NCBI GenBank assembly: GCA_014381725.1 | Contig: JACNLC010000039.1 | Span: forward strand, 1 to 49,273 | Source of the DNA: Fidelibacterota bacterium | Lineage (GTDB): Bacteria; Fidelibacterota; Marinisomatia; SCGC-AAA003-L08; JACNLC01 | Direction: 5' to 3' | Length of the DNA stretch: 49,273 bases | Part shown: one piece after another, positions 26,869 through 45,175 of the stretch | Position numbering within the stretch: position 1 is the stretch's first letter | How the letters are laid out: each line of letters begins with the position of its first letter | Notes under the pieces: generated by a model | What the model saw: the letters and a program-made list of their open reading frames with translations, nothing else | Databases searched by the model: none | Told to the model about the DNA's origin: nothing | Made by a program: the position numbers and the translations under genes

Positions 26869-27948
26869 TCACTTTGAAAACATTTTCAAGTCCGTTTTTG
26901 TGTAACCGAATAATGCAACAACATCGTGACATAATTTTACAATAGTATTTGAACTCAAATTTGCTTCAACAAATACATCTGTCCCTTCAATAATTTGAGG
27001 AACTCTTAACAACGATTCATCTTTCGTATAATATGGTCGCTTTCTTCCATGTAATGTTAGAACTTTGGTAAAATCAGACCTGTGAGTTTGGTGCAATATT
27101 TGGCTAATTCTACATAAAACATCAATCCAAAACCGCACTTCATAAGTTTGATTATTAAATTTAAACGCAGAAACCTTTTTACCAGTATAGCCCGAAGATT
27201 GTGTGTTGACCTTTCTAATTGGTTTTTTGACTTGAATTGTAATTTTGGGGAGTTCGGTCTTTTGCTTTTTTGCACCCTGTTTTTTTACAAAACGACTGGC
27301 TTCATCTATAGAAACTTTATATCCATCTTTTTCTACAATTGAAATGATTGCTTCAGGTAAACTTGGAAATGGTGGTTCTAAAACTTGTCGCCGTGCTTCA
27401 GAAACAGCATCTTCCATAGATCGTTGTTTTTGGGAAAGTGTTAAATATGTTTCTGCTTCATTTTTTGCGTTCCCAGATCGAATTTCTTCTTTTGACAAAA
27501 AAGCATAAAAAGATAATTCAATATCATCAAGTTCGTCTTTTAATAAATCAATTATCTTGAAACATTTTTGTGAAAATTCACCACCTGTTTGTGAATAATA
27601 GAACCGCCATAATTGTCCATCTGTAATAATTGAAAATGGTGCAGTATTATTCCGATTATAATCCCTTAACTGAACTTCGTGTTTTGCTAAATCAAAATCA
27701 AGTTTACCCATTGCTTTAATTTCTACAAAAACACTTGGGGTTGGCGAATTATCAAATAAAGCAACATCCACTCTTGATTTATCTTCGTTTGGAACAGTGT
27801 TAAATTCCGTTGCAACCTCTTTGGGGTTCCAAATATTCCAACCAAGTTCTTGAAGAATTCTAGAAACAAGTGAAAAACGGACATTCTCTTCATTTAAGAA
27901 ATATCCCTTTTTAATGAATTCCCGTATTTCTAATAAAATTTCATTCAT
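26869..27948 (-). CDS. PD-(D/E)XK nuclease-domain protein (HsdR N-terminal-like), standalone
   Basis: The 359-residue protein has an N-terminal fold like the type I restriction HsdR N-domain: FSLVSRILQELGW (25-37), then SRVDVALF (58-65) and VFVEIKA (73-79), giving the D61...E76-x-K78 nuclease triad. Residues about 175-245 are a charged linker. The C-terminal part (about 255-359) has FKFNNQTYEVRFWIDVLCRI, HGRKRPYYT and VFVEANLSSNTIVKLC, a domain seen attached to such nucleases. No helicase, methylase or specificity gene is adjacent. Codon third positions lack the strand bias of neighbouring genes, suggesting recent arrival. Role in defence is a guess. Confidence 0.65.
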   Translation of the reverse strand: MNEILLEIREFIKKGYFLNEENVRFSLVSRILQELGWNIWNPKEVATEFNTVPNEDKSRVDVALFDNSPTPSVFVEIKAMGKLDFDLAKHEVQLRDYNRNNTAPFSIITDGQLWRFYYSQTGGEFSQKCFKIIDLLKDELDDIELSFYAFLSKEEIRSGNAKNEAETYLTLSQKQRSMEDAVSEARRQVLEPPFPSLPEAIISIVEKDGYKVSIDEASRFVKKQGAKKQKTELPKITIQVKKPIRKVNTQSSGYTGKKVSAFKFNNQTYEVRFWIDVLCRISQILHQTHRSDFTKVLTLHGRKRPYYTKDESLLRVPQIIEGTDVFVEANLSSNTIVKLCHDVVALFGYTKTDLKMFSK

Positions 27949-31965: not shown

Positions 31966-32700
31966 ATGCGTTTAATCATTACTATAATATGTTCTTTTCA
32001 ATTTCTATATTCTGCATTCGAGAATGCAAATATCTCATCCATGATTTTTATAGAAGATGACAAACCATCATTTACGGTATCCGCGTCCACTATTTACCCA
32101 TATCAATTAAACTATTTACAACTTACAGAGCTCGATTGTAAAATTAACTACAAGGATATTGTCTATCATCTAAAAACACAAACAACTGGAGATGAAATAT
32201 ATAAAGAAATTATTGTGCAATTTTCTACAGAAAAGAAAATAAACAACAAGTTAAGATTAGGGCTAATATTATCAAATTATCACATTCATATAAATAATTA
32301 TGGCAACTCTAATTGTTCAACAATTGGACTGACAATTAAAACAAAAATAGCAGAAAATCTAAAGACAAGAATACTAATTCCAAATTTGACAGCCCTCATA
32401 ACCGCGAAACTTTTTGAAGAAATTCCTAAAACACTTACCGTTTCTTTAATTAAAGAACTACCCAAAAATCAGAGGATTAATTACATTATAGAAAAAGATG
32501 TTTTATTTGATTTAGACCATCAGATATTTTGGACAATAGATTTGTTATCATTTATTGGAGTGCGAGTTGGGTATAAATCACTCACAAACGAAACGGTGTG
32601 GAACCTGAATTTAAAATATAATAAATATCATATAAAATTTGGAATTATTTTACACTCCGTTTTAGGAACCTCAACCGGGTTTGGCATAAGTTATGAATAG
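31966..32700 (+). CDS. Secreted, probable outer-membrane beta-barrel protein
   Basis: The 244-residue protein has a short signal peptide (LIITIICSFQFLYSA). The remainder consists of alternating amphipathic strands (KINYKDIVYHLKTQT, KLRLGLILSNYHIHIN, and similar) ending with FGIILHSVLGTSTGFGISYE, a terminal strand typical of small beta barrels. The stop overlaps the next gene's start by 8 bases, so the two are co-translated; together with the amidase downstream they look like an envelope operon. No family recognised. Confidence 0.55.
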   Translation: MRLIITIICSFQFLYSAFENANISSMIFIEDDKPSFTVSASTIYPYQLNYLQLTELDCKINYKDIVYHLKTQTTGDEIYKEIIVQFSTEKKINNKLRLGLILSNYHIHINNYGNSNCSTIGLTIKTKIAENLKTRILIPNLTALITAKLFEEIPKTLTVSLIKELPKNQRINYIIEKDVLFDLDHQIFWTIDLLSFIGVRVGYKSLTNETVWNLNLKYNKYHIKFGIILHSVLGTSTGFGISYE

Positions 32701-34186
32701 ATATGTCAAATACATCTTATTGATTTGTTTTTGTTTAACGGAAGAGGATTTTCCATTTGATCCTGAAGATGTTTCAGAAACATCTCAAGAATTTGAATTA
32801 ACAGATATTTCACAACAACCTTACAAATCAAGGATCAGATTTGTTCCAAATTCACTATCTAAAGAGTGGCATTTTCATCAATTGTTTCAACATAAAATGT
32901 TTACTGTTGGTGTACGAATTGATGAAAATAAAACTGACGACAAATTTGATATTTCTCGGTTATTTCTTAGTAAAGGTACAAAGAATTACTCGATAATTCT
33001 TGGCAGTATAAAAGCAGAATTTGGTCAAGGACTAGTATTTTCAAACGAATTTGGAAAGTTCAAAAGCTATTCGTCTATAATGCCAATTAGTAAAAACCAC
33101 GATGTTTTTAAAGCTAACCTTAACTCCAAAACGCAATCTAGCATAGAGGGAATAGCACTACAATTTGATACAAAAACATTACACAATAAAATTCTAATTA
33201 CGCAAGGCAACAGAGTTGTTGAATCAAACAATTCTAAAAACAATATTTACGCTTACTATATAAAAAAAGAACTCCAAACTTGTAACATTGGTTTTATTTT
33301 TGCTAAAGAAACAGTATCATACAAATCGACTTATCAAAACTATTATTCAGGAATATTTTCAAAACAATTTGAAAATATAAAAGTTAATGGAGAAGTTGTA
33401 TTCTCAAAATATTCTACAGCATACATAATCAACTGTAGTTCGAAAACGGAGGAATTTCACTGGCTGATACAAAAAAGACATCTTCCCACAAATTGGTCTA
33501 ATATTACAGGCATTCCTTTCACAGAATTTAAGAAGGGAAAAAACGAAAAAGGAATTTTGTTTTACTGCCAATATAAAGAAGAAAGATTAATCATTGGCGC
33601 AACAATTGATGTATTTTCAGAAATTCGAAGTGAAGAAAATTTATCAAAGAATTTCGGATATGACAAGAGAATAATGATTAGTTACAATATCAACGAATTA
33701 GTAAAGCTAGAAATTCGACATAAACAAAAGAGAACAAATAATGAACAACAAAACATACAATTTGGAGTATCACACTCATATTTTGCCCCAATATTGAAAA
33801 GGACATCAGAAGCAGTTGTAAAAATTCCACAAAATAATGGATTCATTTTCAAATATAAATTATTGGAGTATTGTCCAAATATAGAAAAAAAAGAAAAGGG
33901 TCGTTTAATTACAATATCTTTCCCGAAACTTTTCATAAAGGAATGGCGTATTACTAGCTGTATTCGTTGGTTTTCAACTGATAGCTGGGATTCTAGACTA
34001 TATGCTTATGTGCCTGGATTGAGTGGCGAATTTCCAATAAAAACATTCTATGGTAAAGGGTGGCAATCTTTTTTGAAATGTGAATATGGTTTGAGCACTC
34101 AAACAGATGTAAGTTTTCGGGGTTCCTGTGAATGGAAAAATGAACCATTGATTACATTTGCCATTCAAATGGATGTAAATTTATAA
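32693..34186 (+). CDS. Outer-membrane beta-barrel protein related to FCB 'HHH-barrel' proteins, lacking the HHH part
   Basis: The 497-residue protein has a hydrophobic N-terminal signal (KYILLICFCLTEE). Residues about 85-110, SIILGSIKAEFGQGLVFSNEF, resemble the 'GDyqv-FGqGL' segment of a family of FCB barrel proteins that usually carry helix-hairpin-helix repeats at the N-terminus, and DSRLYAYVPGLSGEFPIKTFYGKGWQ (about 443-466) resembles their 'DSRIYsYE...FYGkG' segment. No HHH is visible in the first 80 residues. Length and strand pattern fit a large barrel. Family assignment rests on recalled motifs and is tentative. Confidence 0.5.
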   Translation: MNRYVKYILLICFCLTEEDFPFDPEDVSETSQEFELTDISQQPYKSRIRFVPNSLSKEWHFHQLFQHKMFTVGVRIDENKTDDKFDISRLFLSKGTKNYSIILGSIKAEFGQGLVFSNEFGKFKSYSSIMPISKNHDVFKANLNSKTQSSIEGIALQFDTKTLHNKILITQGNRVVESNNSKNNIYAYYIKKELQTCNIGFIFAKETVSYKSTYQNYYSGIFSKQFENIKVNGEVVFSKYSTAYIINCSSKTEEFHWLIQKRHLPTNWSNITGIPFTEFKKGKNEKGILFYCQYKEERLIIGATIDVFSEIRSEENLSKNFGYDKRIMISYNINELVKLEIRHKQKRTNNEQQNIQFGVSHSYFAPILKRTSEAVVKIPQNNGFIFKYKLLEYCPNIEKKEKGRLITISFPKLFIKEWRITSCIRWFSTDSWDSRLYAYVPGLSGEFPIKTFYGKGWQSFLKCEYGLSTQTDVSFRGSCEWKNEPLITFAIQMDVNL

Positions 34187-35698: not shown

Positions 35699-36907
35699 TT
35701 GAATAAATACGAACACTACTTATTTTCTCTTAGAAACACCGGAATAAAACTTGGATTAGAGCGCACTATTGCTTTAATGGAAGTTTGCGGAAATCCACAA
35801 CTCAAACTTCAGAGTATTCAAATTGCTGGGACAAACGGCAAAGGCTCAACAGCAGCGATGCTTTCAAGTATTTTCCAATCGGCAAATTATAAAACTGGGC
35901 TTTTTACTTCTCCACACCTTATTAGCATGAATGAAAGAATTCGCATAAACAATGCCTGTATAAGCGATAAAACAATTGAAGAATTTATAGATACCTTTAA
36001 GAAAGATTTTGAAAAAATATCTGCATCTTTTTTTGAGATTATAACAGTAATGGCATTGTGGTATTTTGCGAAAGAAAAAGTTGACATAGCAATTCTAGAA
36101 ACCGGATTAGGAGGAAGACTAGATAGCGTAACCGCCTGTAATCCATTATTAACAGTTATGACATCTATATCAAAAGATCACATGCAAATACTAGGAGACA
36201 CCTTAGAAAAAATAACAGTTGAAAAAGCTGGAGTTCTAAAACAAGGTGTTCCGTGTATTTCTTGCAGACAACTACCAGAAGTTGAAAAAGTCCTAATATC
36301 AGAAGCTCAGCGAGTTGGATCTAAAATTATCTGGGTAGAAAAACCACACAAAAACAACTATTACTCCATAGGATTAAAAGGTGAGCACCAACAATTAAAT
36401 GCATTATTGGCAAAACGCTCAGCACAAGAATTAAATTCGTTTAGAATTACTCAAAATCAAATTACTGAAGGATTAAAAAATGTTAAGTGGTTCGGACGAT
36501 TCCAGATTATTCAGGAAAATCCATTGGTTATATTTGATGTTGGGCACAACGAAGAAGGAATTTCAGCATTTTTGGACGAACTTAGAAATCAATCAATAAA
36601 AAGCAAAAGAACATTAATAATTGCCCTACAGGCAACAAAAGATATATCCGCCATTATTAATAGAATTCAAGACGGTTTTGATAAAATTATATGTACACAA
36701 ACTCAACATTACGGTTTTATGGATGCTGAAATATTATCGTCCAAATTTTCCCATGGGAGCAACACAATTATTATCCACAGCCCAGAACAAGCTATTCAGC
36801 AAACAATGAAAAATATGGATAAAAATAATACACTTGCGATAATAGGAACACATTATTTAGGAGAAGCGATTAATAGTTATTTTAAAAATTCTTTTGACAA
36901 TACATAA
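35699..36907 (+). CDS. folC: Folylpolyglutamate synthase / dihydrofolate synthase
   Basis: The 402-residue Mur-ligase-family enzyme adds glutamate to folates. TNGKGSTAAML near residue 45 is the ATP-binding P-loop, TSPHLISMNERIRIN follows as the FolC signature, LETGLGGRLDSVTA (about 131-144) and SKDHMQILGDTLEKI binding segments are present, and FDVGHNEEGI marks the C-terminal domain. The start is TTG 12 bases after the amidase stop, with no good ATG alternative. Length is typical of bacterial FolC. Confidence 0.93.
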   Translation: MNKYEHYLFSLRNTGIKLGLERTIALMEVCGNPQLKLQSIQIAGTNGKGSTAAMLSSIFQSANYKTGLFTSPHLISMNERIRINNACISDKTIEEFIDTFKKDFEKISASFFEIITVMALWYFAKEKVDIAILETGLGGRLDSVTACNPLLTVMTSISKDHMQILGDTLEKITVEKAGVLKQGVPCISCRQLPEVEKVLISEAQRVGSKIIWVEKPHKNNYYSIGLKGEHQQLNALLAKRSAQELNSFRITQNQITEGLKNVKWFGRFQIIQENPLVIFDVGHNEEGISAFLDELRNQSIKSKRTLIIALQATKDISAIINRIQDGFDKIICTQTQHYGFMDAEILSSKFSHGSNTIIIHSPEQAIQQTMKNMDKNNTLAIIGTHYLGEAINSYFKNSFDNT

Positions 36908-36960: not shown

Positions 36961-37008
36961 TTTTTTACCTGGTTAGAATGCAATCAATTGAAAATATTAA
37001 GGATCACA

Positions 37009-38256
37009 ATGGAGATTAATGAACTACAATCTTTAAAAGTTAAAGATTTACAAAAAATTGCCAAAAATATAGGTGCTATAGAATACTCTGGTTTAAGGAA
37101 ACAACATTTAATAAAACTTATTCTAGAGCAGGAAGCAAAAAAGAACGGGGCTATTTTTTCTAAGGGAGTCTTAGAAATACTCCCCGATGGATATGGATTT
37201 CTTCGTTCTCCTGGCTACAGCTATTTACCCGGGCCTGACGATATTTATGTATCACATTCGCAAATTAAACGCTTCAGATTAAGAACTGGCCACTTAATTT
37301 CAGGGCAGGTTCGCCCCCCAAAAGACAACGAACGATTTTTTGCGCTACTGAAAGTAAATACAGTTAATGGGTTGTCTCCTGAAATTAGCAAAAACAATAT
37401 AAATTTTGATAACCTAACCCCTCTTTTCCCAGAAGATAAAATTAAACTAGAGACAAGAAGCCGAGAAACTTCAACTCGTATAATAGATTTGATAGCGCCA
37501 ATAGGAAAGGGACAAAGGGGACTAATTGTTGCCCAGCCGAAAACAGGAAAAACAATTTTACTTCAAAAAATTGCAAATGCTATTTCAGAAAATAATCCAG
37601 AAATCAAATTAATTATTTTGTTAATAGATGAACGCCCGGAAGAAGTAACCGACATGGCTCGCCATGTTGAAGCAGAAGTTGTAGCATCAACTTTTGACGA
37701 ACCACCAGAAAGGCATGTAAATGTATCAAACATGGTAATTGAAAAAGCCCGTCGCTCGGTAGAAGCGGGGGAAGATGTTGTTATTCTGCTAGATTCATTA
37801 ACAAGATTGGCTCGTGCCCACAATACTGTAATTCCCCACAGCGGTAAAATACTATCAGGAGGGGTTGATGCAAATGCTTTACATCATCCAAAAAGATTTT
37901 TTGGCGCAGCAAGAAATGTTGAGGGAGGTGGCAGCTTAACAATAATTGCAACAGCGCTCGTTGATACAGGAAGCAGAATGGATGATGTTATTTTTGAAGA
38001 ATTTAAAGGAACAGGAAATATGGAACTAGTTCTCGACAGGGAACTAAGTGATAGACGCTTATATCCGTCTATTAATATTGCGAGGTCAGGAACAAGGAAA
38101 GAAGAAAAATTGTTTGGGAAAAAAGATCTTTCAAGAATTTGGTTGCTCAGAAAGTTCACAAGCGATATGAACAACATTGAAACTATGGAATTTTTACTTG
38201 ACAAATTGCAAAGAACCAAAAATAATAGAGAATTTCTAGATTCAATGAGCACATAA
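37009..38256 (+). CDS. rho: Transcription termination factor Rho
   Basis: This hexameric RNA-dependent ATPase terminates transcription. 415 residues from ATG 37009, which has AAGGA 5 bases upstream; a TTG seven codons earlier is rejected. N-terminal Rho_N helices ([18 protein letters not shown]) precede the cold-shock RNA-binding domain [16 protein letters not shown] (RNP1-type) and the ATPase domain: Walker [21 protein letters not shown], Walker B region [17 protein letters not shown], and the R-loop/Q-loop segments. Few intrinsic terminators are visible in this window, so Rho may do much of the termination. Confidence 0.97.
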
Positions 38257-38296
38257 CTTTCACTCTATATCAATATCTATGTAAAAAACCTTAAAT

Positions 38297-38989
38297 TTGG
38301 AAAAAATAACCGATAAACCACATTCTATTTTTGTCAAATTAGTTTGTAACACACCACTACAAACCACTCCGTTTGTTGCAAAGGGAGCGATTATGAAACA
38401 ATATCCTAATGAGAAATTTGTTTCGTTTATAAGCGGAGAATATAGAGGGATTTTACTTTATCCAAGGGTTCAGGTTAAAATATTGCGCAATCAACTTTGC
38501 ATATTTGCTGTAAATGAAGGAGTTGAACCAACTAAATCCTTTTTACAAAAAATGAAATCGCTTGAAATTGATGGGACAACCTATGTTTTTGCAGAGCAAA
38601 ACATCTCAGAGAATTTTAATCTTTTTGAAATAATACCAAATCAATACAAAAAATATAAATTTATCACACCATGGGTTGCTTTAAATGAAAGGCAATCAAA
38701 ACAATATGACCGTCTATTTTTCGATGAAAAGCGTGTTTATTTAAACGAAATGCTTGTTAAAAATTTATCATTTATCTGTACAGACTTAGGGAGGTCTTCC
38801 AAGGAAGAATTACAAGTTCGGTTTAGGGCTAGCTCATTAACACCTAAAATTGTTGACTATAGCAAGAACGGCTCGTTCAAAGGTTTTTTTACAACAAATG
38901 TAATTTTACCTAATTTTATTGGAATAGGGAACGGTATAGCTAAGGGGCTAGGGACAATTATAAAGTTGCAACGAACAACAACTCATTAA
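38297..38989 (+). CDS. Orphan Cas6b-like (CRISPR RNA endoribonuclease family) protein
   Basis: The 230-residue protein resembles the Cas6b family. N-terminal KGAI (29-32) corresponds to the family 'FRGAI', YPRVQVK (55-61) to 'YPLIQYK', NEGVE (74-78) to 'NEGVE', ITPWVALNERQ (123-133) to 'TPWLALNE', and the C-terminal FTTNVILPNFIGIGNGIAKG plus LGTI (198-221) to the glycine-rich RNA-binding loop with 'GxGK...GFG'. The histidines usual before 'YPLIQ' (FHNH) are absent: the only histidines are near the two termini. TTG start keeps the KGAI strand; an internal ATG at 38393 has AAGGGAG 6 bases upstream and may give a short form. No CRISPR or cas neighbour. Confidence 0.6.
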   Translation: MEKITDKPHSIFVKLVCNTPLQTTPFVAKGAIMKQYPNEKFVSFISGEYRGILLYPRVQVKILRNQLCIFAVNEGVEPTKSFLQKMKSLEIDGTTYVFAEQNISENFNLFEIIPNQYKKYKFITPWVALNERQSKQYDRLFFDEKRVYLNEMLVKNLSFICTDLGRSSKEELQVRFRASSLTPKIVDYSKNGSFKGFFTTNVILPNFIGIGNGIAKGLGTIIKLQRTTTH

Positions 38990-39079: not shown

Positions 39080-40297
39080 ATGAGCATCAGTTTAATAGGT
39101 CGGGCTATAAAAGAATCCGGCACTCTGAGAATCAATGAGATTGCTTCAATTCTTCGAGCTAAGGGTGAGCCATTGATTCATCTAGGCGGAGGAGAGCCTA
39201 AAAGCAAAGCTCCGATAGACGCAATTACAAATGTTTCTGGATTACTAAACTCTGGAGAAATTAGATACACGCCAGCCGACGGGACTATCCCAATGAAACA
39301 GGCAATTATCCGTTACACAGAAGAATTTTATAACAGAAAAGTGGAACCGGAAAATGTCATTGCTTCCAGCGGTGCAAAACAGGCGATTATGGTTGCACTA
39401 CAAGCTATTCTTGACCCTCAAGATGAAGTTCTTTTTCCAACACCATACTGGGTAAGTTATCCCGAGATGGTAAAATTATGTGGTGCAGTTCCGGTTGCGG
39501 TTAAACCAGAAGACGGCTCGTTCTATCCAAGAATGCAAGATATTGAACAGAATGTATCCTCTTACACAAAAGCGATTATTATTAACAGCCCCAACAACCC
39601 AACGGGAGCGATGTATTCTGAAGAATTTATTTCTAACATAGTCAAATATTGCGAGAAAAAAGGTATCTATCTCATTATGGATGATATCTATCACAGATTA
39701 ATATTTGATGGAAAAAAACCAATTAGTTGCTACGACTATGCTTCTGATCTTACTGATAATTCTAAGTTAATTGTAATTAATGGAGTGTCCAAACAGTATG
39801 CTATGACTGGTTTTAGAATTGGATGGGCTGTAGCAAACAAAAAAGTGATAGAAGTAATGGCAACAATTCAAGGACATCAAACTTCTGGTCCTTCTGTTGT
39901 AACTCAAAAAGCAGCCATAGGAGCAATAAACGGAATTCAATCACATGTTGAATCGTTGAGATTAACTTTAGAAAATAATAGAAATATTATGATGGAAAGA
40001 TTAAATGCGTTTGATGGCGTTGTTCCAACGAAACCAGATGGCACATTTTATACATTCGTGGATTTCAGTCATTATAGCAAAGATTCCTTAGAGTTGGCAA
40101 ATTTCCTTCTAGAAAAAGTGAGGGTAGTTACGGTTCCTGGGGTTGAGTTTGGATTGGAAGGATTTCTTAGACTTTCAACTTGTGGTTCAGTAAAAGATAT
40201 TACTGAAGGGATTGAGCGAATTAAATGGGCATTAGACCCGAATTCACCTAACGAACTATATATTGGAGAAAGAAAATTAGTGAGGGATTGGGTATGA
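39080..40297 (+). CDS. Class I/II PLP-dependent aminotransferase (aspartate aminotransferase-like)
   Basis: The 405-residue fold-type I enzyme interconverts amino and keto acids. GEPKSKAPIDAI near residue 36, YTPADG (74-79), SSGAKQAIMVAL (PLP phosphate), INSPNNPTGAMYSEE (about 170), and GVSKQYAMTGFRIGW with the PLP lysine in SKQYAMTG are present; the C-terminal FLRLSTCGS carries the substrate-carboxylate arginine. AAGGAG lies upstream of the ATG. It overlaps pckA by 3 bases, so aspartate/oxaloacetate exchange and oxaloacetate decarboxylation to PEP are co-expressed. Substrate aspartate is inference. Confidence 0.88.
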   Translation: MSISLIGRAIKESGTLRINEIASILRAKGEPLIHLGGGEPKSKAPIDAITNVSGLLNSGEIRYTPADGTIPMKQAIIRYTEEFYNRKVEPENVIASSGAKQAIMVALQAILDPQDEVLFPTPYWVSYPEMVKLCGAVPVAVKPEDGSFYPRMQDIEQNVSSYTKAIIINSPNNPTGAMYSEEFISNIVKYCEKKGIYLIMDDIYHRLIFDGKKPISCYDYASDLTDNSKLIVINGVSKQYAMTGFRIGWAVANKKVIEVMATIQGHQTSGPSVVTQKAAIGAINGIQSHVESLRLTLENNRNIMMERLNAFDGVVPTKPDGTFYTFVDFSHYSKDSLELANFLLEKVRVVTVPGVEFGLEGFLRLSTCGSVKDITEGIERIKWALDPNSPNELYIGERKLVRDWV

Positions 40298-41965: not shown

Positions 41966-42181
41966 ATGAAAGCAGGAATACACCCTGAATACAAACTAGG
42001 CACTGTACATTGTGCGTGCGGGAATACTTTTGAAACTCGAATGACTGTAGATGCAATAAAAGTAGAAATCTGCAACGAATGTCACCCGTATTTTACTGGA
42101 AAGCAAAATCTAATTGATACAGCGGGTCGAATTGAAAAGTATATGAAAAAATACAATCTTTCCGAAGACGATATTAAATAG
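41966..42181 (+). CDS. rpmE: Large ribosomal subunit protein bL31, zinc-binding (C+) form
   Basis: A 71-residue ribosomal protein. MKAGIHPEY starts it, and CACGNTFETR with CNECHPYFTGKQ provides the cysteines of the C+ form that bind zinc. AGGAGG 6-7 bases before the ATG is the strongest ribosome-binding site around. A hairpin-and-T-tract terminator follows the stop. Confidence 0.95.
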   Translation: MKAGIHPEYKLGTVHCACGNTFETRMTVDAIKVEICNECHPYFTGKQNLIDTAGRIEKYMKKYNLSEDDIK

Positions 42182-42240: not shown

Positions 42241-43215
42241 ATGAAACTAATTGTAAAAACCTTAGCGTTACTGGTTTCTAAATCGCAAATTCTTGTCGGT
42301 GGGCAAGCAGTTATCGAAGGTGTGATGATGCGTGTGCCTGGTGCCTATGCAACAGCTGTCAGAAATCCAGAAAATGAAATTCAAATTGACAGACACGAAT
42401 TTGAATCAATTGTTGAGCGAAAACCACATCTAAAAAAACCTATATTGCGTGGCATAGTTCAACTATTTGAAGCTATGAAAATTGGATTCAAAACTCTCCA
42501 ATGGTCAGCTGAAATCACATATCCTGAAGAAAAAGAAAAATCAGGAAATAAACTAACAGAAATTGCTTCGACAATTTTCGCTATTGGACTTGCAATAGGA
42601 TTGTTTTTTGTTGCTCCGATTGGCTTGACAACCTGGTTGTTCGATAAAAACAATGAACCATTTTACTTTAACATTATATCAGGGGGAGTGAGAATAGCAT
42701 TTTTTCTTATTTATTTAATTCTTATATCGCTGATGAAAGATGTTAAACGGCTATTTCAGTATCACGGAGCAGAACATCAAACGATTTATGCGTTTGAGTC
42801 TGGCAATAATTTAGAAATTTCTGAAGCGAAAAGACACCCAACACAGCATCCTCGTTGCGGAACCAGTTTCATTTTTATCCTTTTAATTGTTGCGATATTG
42901 ACATTTGCGGTCATTGATTCGTTTATGATGTTATTTGTGAAAGATATTCAAGTTTGGATGCGCTTATTGATTCATCTGCCAATGGTTCCGCTAGTTTCGG
43001 GGTTTGGATATGAAGTCCTTAAACTAACCGCAAAATACAGAAAAAATATTTTGTTCAGAATGTTTGCTATGCCGGGAATTTGGCTTCAATATATTACCAC
43101 TAAACAGCCGGACGATGAACAATTAGAAGTTGCGATTAAAGCTCTCCAAAGTGCATTTGGAGATAAAATCAAAGACCATACAGGGCAGAAATTTGTCGCA
43201 GAGGCAATTGGATGA
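42241..43215 (+). CDS. DUF1385 (YqhQ-like) membrane protein
   Basis: The 324-residue polytopic membrane protein of the DUF1385 family, often encoded next to rpmE/prfA/prmC as here. Signatures: [14 protein letters not shown] (18-31), [56 protein letters not shown]. Four or five hydrophobic segments are visible between about 105 and 270. Histidine- and cysteine-containing motifs suggest metal binding, but biochemical function is not established. The ATG directly follows the terminator with no obvious ribosome-binding site. It overlaps prfA by 4 bases. Confidence 0.88.
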
Positions 43216-44273
43216 TAAACAAAATAAAAGATGTTGTAAAGCGATATGATGAGCTCGGATTAAAACTGAGCCAGTCAGAAATTGTATCTAACAGGAAGAA
43301 GTTCACTAAGTTAGCTCGTGAACATTCTAGTTTGGAAGACCTTGTAACAATTGGCAAAATATTTATATTGAAATCTGACCAGTTAGAAGAATTTGAAGAT
43401 GTTTTAAGCGGAGACGATGAAGAGTTAAAAGAACTCGTCAAAGAAGAAATTGACGAATTGAAAGATGAGTTAGAATCTTTGGAAGAAAAATTAAAAGTTC
43501 TACTTATCCCTAAAGACCCCGATGATGACAAGAATACAATTTTAGAAATCCGAAGCGGAACCGGTGGCGAAGAAGCCGCATTATTTGGTGGTGATTTGTA
43601 TCGGATGTATATGCGATATGCCGAGAGACGAGGCTGGAAAATAGAATTGATGTCGTTGAGTGAATCAGAAAATCGCGGAGTAAAAGAAGCTGTTGTTAGC
43701 ATCATCGGAAAAGGTGCATTTGGAGATTTGAAATTTGAAAGTGGCGTTCATCGAGTGCAACGAGTTCCAGCTACAGAATCAAGCGGAAGAATTCACACTA
43801 GCGCCGCTACAGTTGCCGTTCTACCAGAAGCTGAAGATGTTGATATTGAAGTGAATGATGCTGATTTGAAAATAGACACTTACCGAGCATCCGGTGCTGG
43901 TGGCCAGCATGTAAATAAAACTGAATCTGCTATTAGAATTACACATATTCCAACTGGACTCGTTGTAACTTGTCAAGACGAAACTTCACAACACAAAAAT
44001 CGCGACAAAGCAATGAAAGTTTTACGAACACGCTTATATGAAGTTGAACAAGAACGACTCCATAAAGAAAGAGCGGATGCCAGAAAATCAATGGTTTCTA
44101 CCGGCGACAGAAGTGCAAAAATCCGGACTTACAATTATCCACAAGGGCGCGTAACCGAACATAGAATCAATCTAACTTTATATAAACTCGACAGCATTAT
44201 GGACGGCGACTTAGCCGAGATAATTGAAGCTCTAAAAATCGAGGAGCAAAAAGTTAAACTTTCGAGTGCATAA
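43212..44273 (+). CDS. prfA: Peptide chain release factor 1
   Basis: RF1 recognises UAA and UAG and triggers peptidyl-tRNA hydrolysis. 353 residues. [11 protein letters not shown]-type motif ([15 protein letters not shown]) carries the catalytic GGQ, whose glutamine is methylated by the next gene's product; [20 protein letters not shown] contains the PxT stop-codon tripeptide (PAT), the RF1 form. The coiled N-terminal region is rich in Glu and Lys. Followed 47 bases later by prmC. Confidence 0.97.
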
Positions 44274-44320
44274 TTTGAATTATGTGCAAACCTAAATCTA
44301 TTTTTCTCACTATATAGCCA

Positions 44321-45175
44321 ATGCCAAAAATCTGGAGAGTTATAGATTTAATTGATTGGGGTGTGGAATATTTCCAGTCAAAAAATATATCAAATGCACG
44401 ACTTGAAACAGAATGGTTGCTGTGCGATGTGCTAGAATGCAAAAGAATTGATTTGTATGTCCGATTTGAGCAATCGTTATCACAAACAGAATTAAGTAAA
44501 TTTAAATCATTTATTCTTCGTAGAATTAAAGGCGAACCGTTTCAGCACATTATAGGCAAAGCCCCCTTTTATGGTAGAGATTTTATCGTAAATAGGGATG
44601 TTCTTATCCCGCGACCAGAAACCGAAATTATCATTGATATCACAAAACAAAACAATATTTCTCCAAATAAAATATTAGATATTGGCACTGGAAGCGGTTG
44701 TTTGGCAATTACTTTGGCTTTAGAAAATCCAAATTCTGAAGTTATTGCCACTGATGTTTCCGAAAAGGCACTAATGATTGCTAAGGAAAATGCTCATCGA
44801 TTTAAACTCCAAAACATTAACTTTTTTCAACACAATTTTCTAAAAGAGAATTTCTCAGAAAAGTTTGATTTAATTGTTTCAAATCCACCATATATTGCAA
44901 CAGATGAAATTGAAAATCTACAACCTGAAGTCAAAGATTATGACCCAACTATTGCACTCACCGACGGCAAAGACGGACTGATATTTTATCGTAGATTTTC
45001 CGAAATGGCGAGTGTTTTAATTAACGAAAATGGAAAAATGCTTTTGGAGTTTGGTGGTAACCAACAAGTTGAAGCTGTAAGTAGCATTTTCACAAATGAC
45101 GATTTTGTGGTTAAATTTCATCGTGATTTACAAAACGAACAACGAGTAATTGAAATTTCATTCACCAATGATTAA
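44321..45175 (+). CDS. prmC: Release factor glutamine N5-methyltransferase
   Basis: SAM-dependent methyltransferase acting on the GGQ glutamine of RF1/RF2. 284 residues with an N-terminal helical domain (ARLETEWLLCDVLECKRIDLYV), GRDFIVNRDVLIPRPETE, SAM-binding ILDIGTGSGCLAITLA and the catalytic IVSNPPYIATDEI. Adjacent to its substrate gene prfA. Its end overlaps the UbiA gene by 8 bases. Confidence 0.96.
   Translation: MPKIWRVIDLIDWGVEYFQSKNISNARLETEWLLCDVLECKRIDLYVRFEQSLSQTELSKFKSFILRRIKGEPFQHIIGKAPFYGRDFIVNRDVLIPRPETEIIIDITKQNNISPNKILDIGTGSGCLAITLALENPNSEVIATDVSEKALMIAKENAHRFKLQNINFFQHNFLKENFSEKFDLIVSNPPYIATDEIENLQPEVKDYDPTIALTDGKDGLIFYRRFSEMASVLINENGKMLLEFGGNQQVEAVSSIFTNDDFVVKFHRDLQNEQRVIEISFTND

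Follow-up and report, generated by a model that had tools for sequence, protein, structure and literature searches.

In a 49,273-nt stretch of Ca. Marinimicrobia DNA (the window), we identified an orphan gene of the Cas6b family directly downstream of rho, and we use the name cas6L for the rho-linked orthologous family to which it belongs. The encoded protein is a Cas6b family member by its domains and fold, lacks the catalytic residues of that family, is linked to rho, is independent of CRISPR and is under constraint; the orphans form one clade distinct from the CRISPR-associated Cas6b of the same phylum. On our reading, held with a probability of roughly 0.6, cas6L is a domesticated Cas6b that works as an RNA-binding protein, perhaps a rewired RNase, in core RNA metabolism. 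Across much of a marine phylum, it seems, a lone crRNA-processing protein has been turned into a vertically inherited gene and fixed beside rho. We found no precedent for an orphan or domesticated Cas6 in the open-access papers searched. The features of the locus are collected in Table 1.

Table 1. Coordinates of cas6L, its sequence elements and its neighbours in the window
Feature	Position	Strand	Basis
folC-like gene, conserved neighbour	35699..36907	+	ORF and locus comparison
rho, directly upstream of cas6L, 40-nt spacer	36988..38256	+	linkage in 80/80 listed loci and in other classes
rho-cas6L spacer, here without the GGTGTAGCA hairpin element present in some marine families	38257..38296	+	spacer comparison
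cas6L, orphan Cas6b-family protein, 230 aa, TTG start	38297..38989	+	Pfam domains, PDB 4z7k (sequence and fold), AlphaFold2
Residues 42-54, equivalent of the M. maripaludis loop with H38, N39, H40 and Y47; here VSFISGEYRGILL, no histidine	38420..38458	+	alignment
Residues 55-59, YPRVQ	38459..38473	+	alignment
Residues 209-219, glycine-rich loop GIGNGIAKGLG, kept from Cas6b	38921..38953	+	alignment
Pyridoxal-phosphate aminotransferase (aspC-like), usual downstream neighbour	39080..40297	+	ORF and locus comparison
rpmE-like ORF (ribosomal protein L31)	41966..42181	+	cluster comparison
DUF1385-like, prfA and prmC genes, conserved downstream cluster	42241..45175	+	ORFs and locus comparison

The cas6L product exceeded the curated Pfam cut-offs for both Cas6b domains (Cas6b_C, E = 8.7e-21; Cas6b_N, E = 5.7e-9), which were also matched in all 28 aligned orthologues, and it was recognized by the PADLOC Cas6 profile (E = 2.5e-34). 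By sequence it matched one solved structure in the PDB, 4z7k, which is M. maripaludis Cas6b (7.5e-18; 2.6e-39 with the family profile). An AlphaFold2 model computed with the 28 orthologues as input (pLDDT 92.5, pTM 0.88) shows two RRM-like domains; Foldseek ranked 4z7k_A first (E = 2.8e-19, TM 0.80, rmsd 2.8), followed by other Cas6 proteins. The initial annotation had described a protein resembling Cas6b along its whole length, encoded between rho and an aminotransferase gene, with no CRISPR array or cas gene in 49 kb and no active-site histidines, and each of these points held, including the superposition on a Cas6b crystal structure that it had proposed as a check. Like the M. maripaludis enzyme (4z7k/4z7l; PF17955 and PF17262), cas6L has both domains, the fold over its whole length, the YPx[VI]Q strand, the TPWxALN motif and the glycine-rich loop. 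It differs in lacking H38, H40 and Y47, in a loop shorter by two residues, in the orphan-specific residues R57, F159 and Y26, in having no CRISPR locus, in its linkage to rho, in its vertical inheritance and in the tail carried by one class.

Catalysis by M. maripaludis Cas6b requires H38, H40 and Y47 (PMC3945376). None of these residues is present in the window protein: S43 replaces H38, the multiple alignment places N39-H40 in a two-residue deletion, and L53 stands where Y47 would be. The deletion over N39-H40 was found in 46 of 46 orphans, with P, S or another non-histidine residue at position 38, and Y47 was kept in just eight of them; the histidines were also missing from the more divergent f25 group. 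The same deletion thus removed the catalytic loop in every clade member examined, a consistent absence that the initial annotation had named as support for its proposal. CRISPR-linked Cas6b proteins of the same phylum retain the catalytic HNH loop, with H38 in 7/8, H40 in 7/8 and some loop histidine in 8/8. Among other positions, F159 was conserved in all 46 orphans, and R50 and R57 in 44 each, R57 not being conserved as arginine in CRISPR Cas6b.

cas6L is set into a housekeeping cluster, rho-rpmE-DUF1385-prfA-prmC. A single-sequence search of the genome contigs returned no relatives; an alignment query returned 116, and in the best 80 of these, which belong to Ca. Marinimicrobia (Neomarinimicrobiota), rho lay immediately 5' of cas6L on the same strand in every case (80/80). 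The order in the main class is (murI)-folC-rho-cas6L-aminotransferase-(rpmE)-DUF1385-prfA-prmC. Other classes kept the rho-cas6L pair with different genes downstream (rho-cas6L-ubiA-dnaE in f23, unrelated genes in f22). In all loci read that include upstream sequence, rho was the gene immediately 5' of cas6L, and the conserved orphan context was confirmed. Families f2, f3, f5 and f6 and genome G010 have rho with no cas6L behind it, mostly with the aminotransferase gene directly next, indicating that cas6L is not essential phylum-wide; the contig of G003 ends inside rho, which leaves the absence of cas6L there unproven. The adjacency to rho may reflect genome inertia rather than function. One MAG (G171) contained two complete rho-cas6L loci, which differ in type and lie on separate contigs (L176 and L177), probably representing two strains or contamination.

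Members of the phylum Marinimicrobia abound in the oceans. The window corresponds to contig C74 of a genome of 2.18 Mb that is 98% complete, and a cas6L orthologue was detected in 61 of 100 relatives, with some absences unsure because of MAG incompleteness and contig breaks. A family-profile scan found Cas6b in 130 of 245 genomes of the phylum, mostly the cas6L orphan, with Cas6b from CRISPR loci among the weaker matches; a Cas6b match in Marinimicrobia should not be equated with a CRISPR system in annotation. No cas6L relatives were found in viral contigs. We considered whether cas6L replaces a general RNase. For RNase III the pattern was the opposite, the enzyme being present in 25/28 carriers versus 14/32 non-carriers (uncorrected for kinship), and RNase E/G was near-universal, with no complementarity. 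RNase III (PF14622) escaped detection in many streamlined genomes, f6 genomes of 93-98% completeness among them, and in f3 and f6, which share an order and class, its absence goes together with that of cas6L. Joint loss in streamlined genomes most likely explains this co-occurrence.

No CRISPR-like repeat array was found within the 49-kb window. Among the 100 relatives, cas1 was detected in five, all of them cas6L carriers and one of them the window's own genome, leaving 56 of the 61 carriers with no cas1. Effectors occurred in three of the 100 genomes (type III RAMP proteins in two, type I Cas7 in one), and cas6L shows no regular co-occurrence with cas1 or effector genes. The genome of the window has a type III-D CRISPR-Cas locus on contig C22, comprising cas1, Cas10, Cas5/Cas7, CARF proteins, its own Cas6 and an array in which GTCTTAATCCACTCGGTATGTGGAGGGGATTCTGAC recurs about 15 times, the repeats being 36-37 nt long (G000; L056 12293-13642; L156). 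This Cas6 is of a family unrelated to Cas6b (PF10040; PADLOC 4.6e-76), and cas6L itself resides at the rho locus. The genomes with true type I-B systems (G004, G105 and G106; L048, L174 and L175) encode a second, intact Cas6b beside the cas genes in addition to the orphan. The initial annotation had held that a complete CRISPR-Cas locus elsewhere, served by this enzyme, would overturn its proposal: such a locus exists, but it has a Cas6 of its own. CRISPR markers are absent from most carriers, in line with the conservation in relatives lacking CRISPR that the annotation had proposed as a check.

Three further observations concern CRISPR loci of the phylum. Some GTCTTAATCCACTCGGTATGTGGAGGGGATTCTGAC repeats of the C22 array are split by an insert (a 151-nt tandem unit). 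Several CARF-type proteins are encoded at the C22 locus, one of which (828 aa) is apparently fused to a metallo-beta-lactamase-type domain. In another genome (L047 7244-12717; G089:C18), a CRISPR-type Cas6b with a loop histidine is encoded near a Cas12a gene (identified by Pfam Cpf1 domains) where a contig ends, and a REP-associated transposase-like gene separates the two; Cas6b beside Cas12a is unusual.

In close pairs, dN/dS of cas6L was 0.03-0.23, below that of folC in every pair computable for both genes. The reading frames were intact over phylum-level divergence, and 27 columns were invariant in the 28-sequence alignment. The maximum-likelihood tree, built by a quick method with no bootstrap and with three f25 sequences on a long branch, separated rho-linked proteins from CRISPR Cas6b by a branch with SH-aLRT 97. 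cas6L distances tracked rho distances (Mantel r 0.81, 0/2000 permutations), as expected of vertical inheritance. A conserved orphan of this kind suggests a part in ordinary RNA metabolism that has not been described before. In the main class, most families have acquired a C-terminal tail ending in [FY]N[ST]xEYHKKQH, which is of low confidence in the model and probably disordered; it is missing from the window protein, from its family and from the other classes. We rejected this ending as a shared docking tag, as it was specific to the cas6L protein in 12 genomes, with one chance-like extra match. One orphan (L039; G091:C41) has a long lysine/asparagine-rich tail, the longest tails being found in f13.

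We then focused on the spacer between rho and cas6L. In several marine families it contains GTGTAG[CAT]A, of which about 6.4 kb of spacer sequence holds 20 copies and about 804 kb of other same-strand sequence holds 16. The element often caps a small hairpin whose apex, GGUG-UAG-CA (apical GGUGUAGCA), is conserved; the GGTGTAGCA hairpin element was seen in the spacers of L076-L113 and L145, and in some genomes the hairpin covers the likely ribosome-binding site. For an 8-bp stem, chosen after inspection among sequences related to each other, 73.5% of cells pair compared with 35-60% for slid versions, and the covariation score was 0.37 compared with 0.10-0.25 for slides, a value reached in 0/500 shuffles; the number of pairs was likewise higher than in slid and shuffled versions. 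RNAalifold predicted no consensus structure for the leaders. The hairpin occurs in some families only, no phylum-wide conserved spacer hairpin being found, and the element is absent from f1 (the family of the window), f4 and f13. A covariance model returned the leader as the best genome-wide match in 7/8 genomes and no further copies clearly above background across the eight; since the leaders themselves served to build it, its information lies only in the lack of other matches. If the leader is a target, this lack indicates a site in cis and not a substrate dispersed over the genome. As a lead only, the hairpin is a candidate autoregulatory or target site of cas6L in a subset of relatives.

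These observations are consistent with the following history. A Cas6b gene probably settled beside rho early in the Marinimicrobia lineage, then lost its catalytic HNH loop, and has since been passed on vertically outside CRISPR, under purifying selection. The retained two-domain fold and glycine-rich loop would still bind short RNA, either hairpin or single strand. Lacking the standard His/Tyr catalysis, the protein may only bind, or may cleave slowly by means of basic residues such as R50 and R57, which would resemble the Lys/Arg network of Sulfolobus Cas6. Its presumed role in core RNA metabolism would be functionally tied to the rho transcription unit, and the leader hairpin, as a lead, would fit a role in autoregulation or in the processing of rho-cas6L mRNA. 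It is unlikely, though worth stating, that the protein is specifically a core post-transcriptional regulator that binds GGUG-UAG-CA-type hairpins, including the rho-cas6L leader, and in this way links the Rho termination module with RNA processing or translation.

How much activity the protein retains bears on the main alternatives. That cas6L is an active endoribonuclease with a rewired Arg/Lys site, cleaving or maturing a cellular hairpin RNA and possibly its own mRNA, is doubtful but a possibility to be taken seriously. Sulfolobus Cas6 (SsoCas6) is active with no active-site histidine, using Lys25, Lys28, Lys51 and Arg231 (PMC3652601), so that histidine loss alone is not proof of activity loss in cas6L, and its basic residues could still confer nuclease activity. 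The near-invariance of the orphan-specific R50 and R57 fits such a site, as does the small-hairpin form of the leader element, which many Cas6 substrates share; the shortened active-site loop argues against it. Processing of crRNA in trans for an array elsewhere, as by an ordinary Cas6b, is very improbable and largely refuted. Many type III systems do borrow Cas6 in trans (PMC12669027), and the window's genome does contain an array within a type III-D locus, but the PF10040 protein of that locus, the lack of cas1 in most carriers, the loss of catalytic residues in every orphan and the separate intact Cas6b of the type I-B genomes all speak against this role.

Loss of the catalytic residues, together with the clean absence of the gene from several lineages, might suggest a decaying, functionless CRISPR relic carried in a conserved operon. 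The low dN/dS, the intact frames, the 27 invariant columns and the gain of a conserved lineage-specific tail motif are at odds with decay, and purifying selection refutes this reading in practice, leaving it hardly any credence. We also think it improbable that cas6L is a scaffold or protein partner, for example of Rho or RNA polymerase through its tail, with RNA binding unused. Close linkage to rho and a disordered tail with a protein-specific motif in most main-class members would fit a scaffold, but the window's family and the other classes have no tail, and the conserved part is the RNA-binding core.

Among known systems, Sulfolobus solfataricus Cas6 (Sso1437) resembles cas6L in having no active-site histidine (PMC3652601); unlike cas6L, it is CRISPR-associated and dimeric and belongs to another Cas6 subfamily, which has a Lys/Arg network of its own. 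Derivatives of CRISPR known to be exapted include type IV systems, CASTs, STAND-NTPase-linked I-E systems and CreTA repeats (PMC8730458, PMC6452270). cas6L shares with them the reuse of a Cas component outside adaptive immunity; they keep several Cas proteins or crRNAs, whereas cas6L is a lone Cas6b, seemingly turned into a chromosomal gene of a whole phylum, and has neither a guide RNA nor a further Cas protein. A domesticated cas6L would provide a natural test of whether a Cas6 is able to act more generally, as an RNA-binding regulator or an RNase.

Elsewhere in the window, an HsdR N-terminal domain protein (Pfam HSDR_N) is encoded on the minus strand at 26869-27948 with no recognisable restriction genes beside it, and two long ORFs with no Pfam match lie upstream of an amidase gene on the plus strand at 31966-34186.
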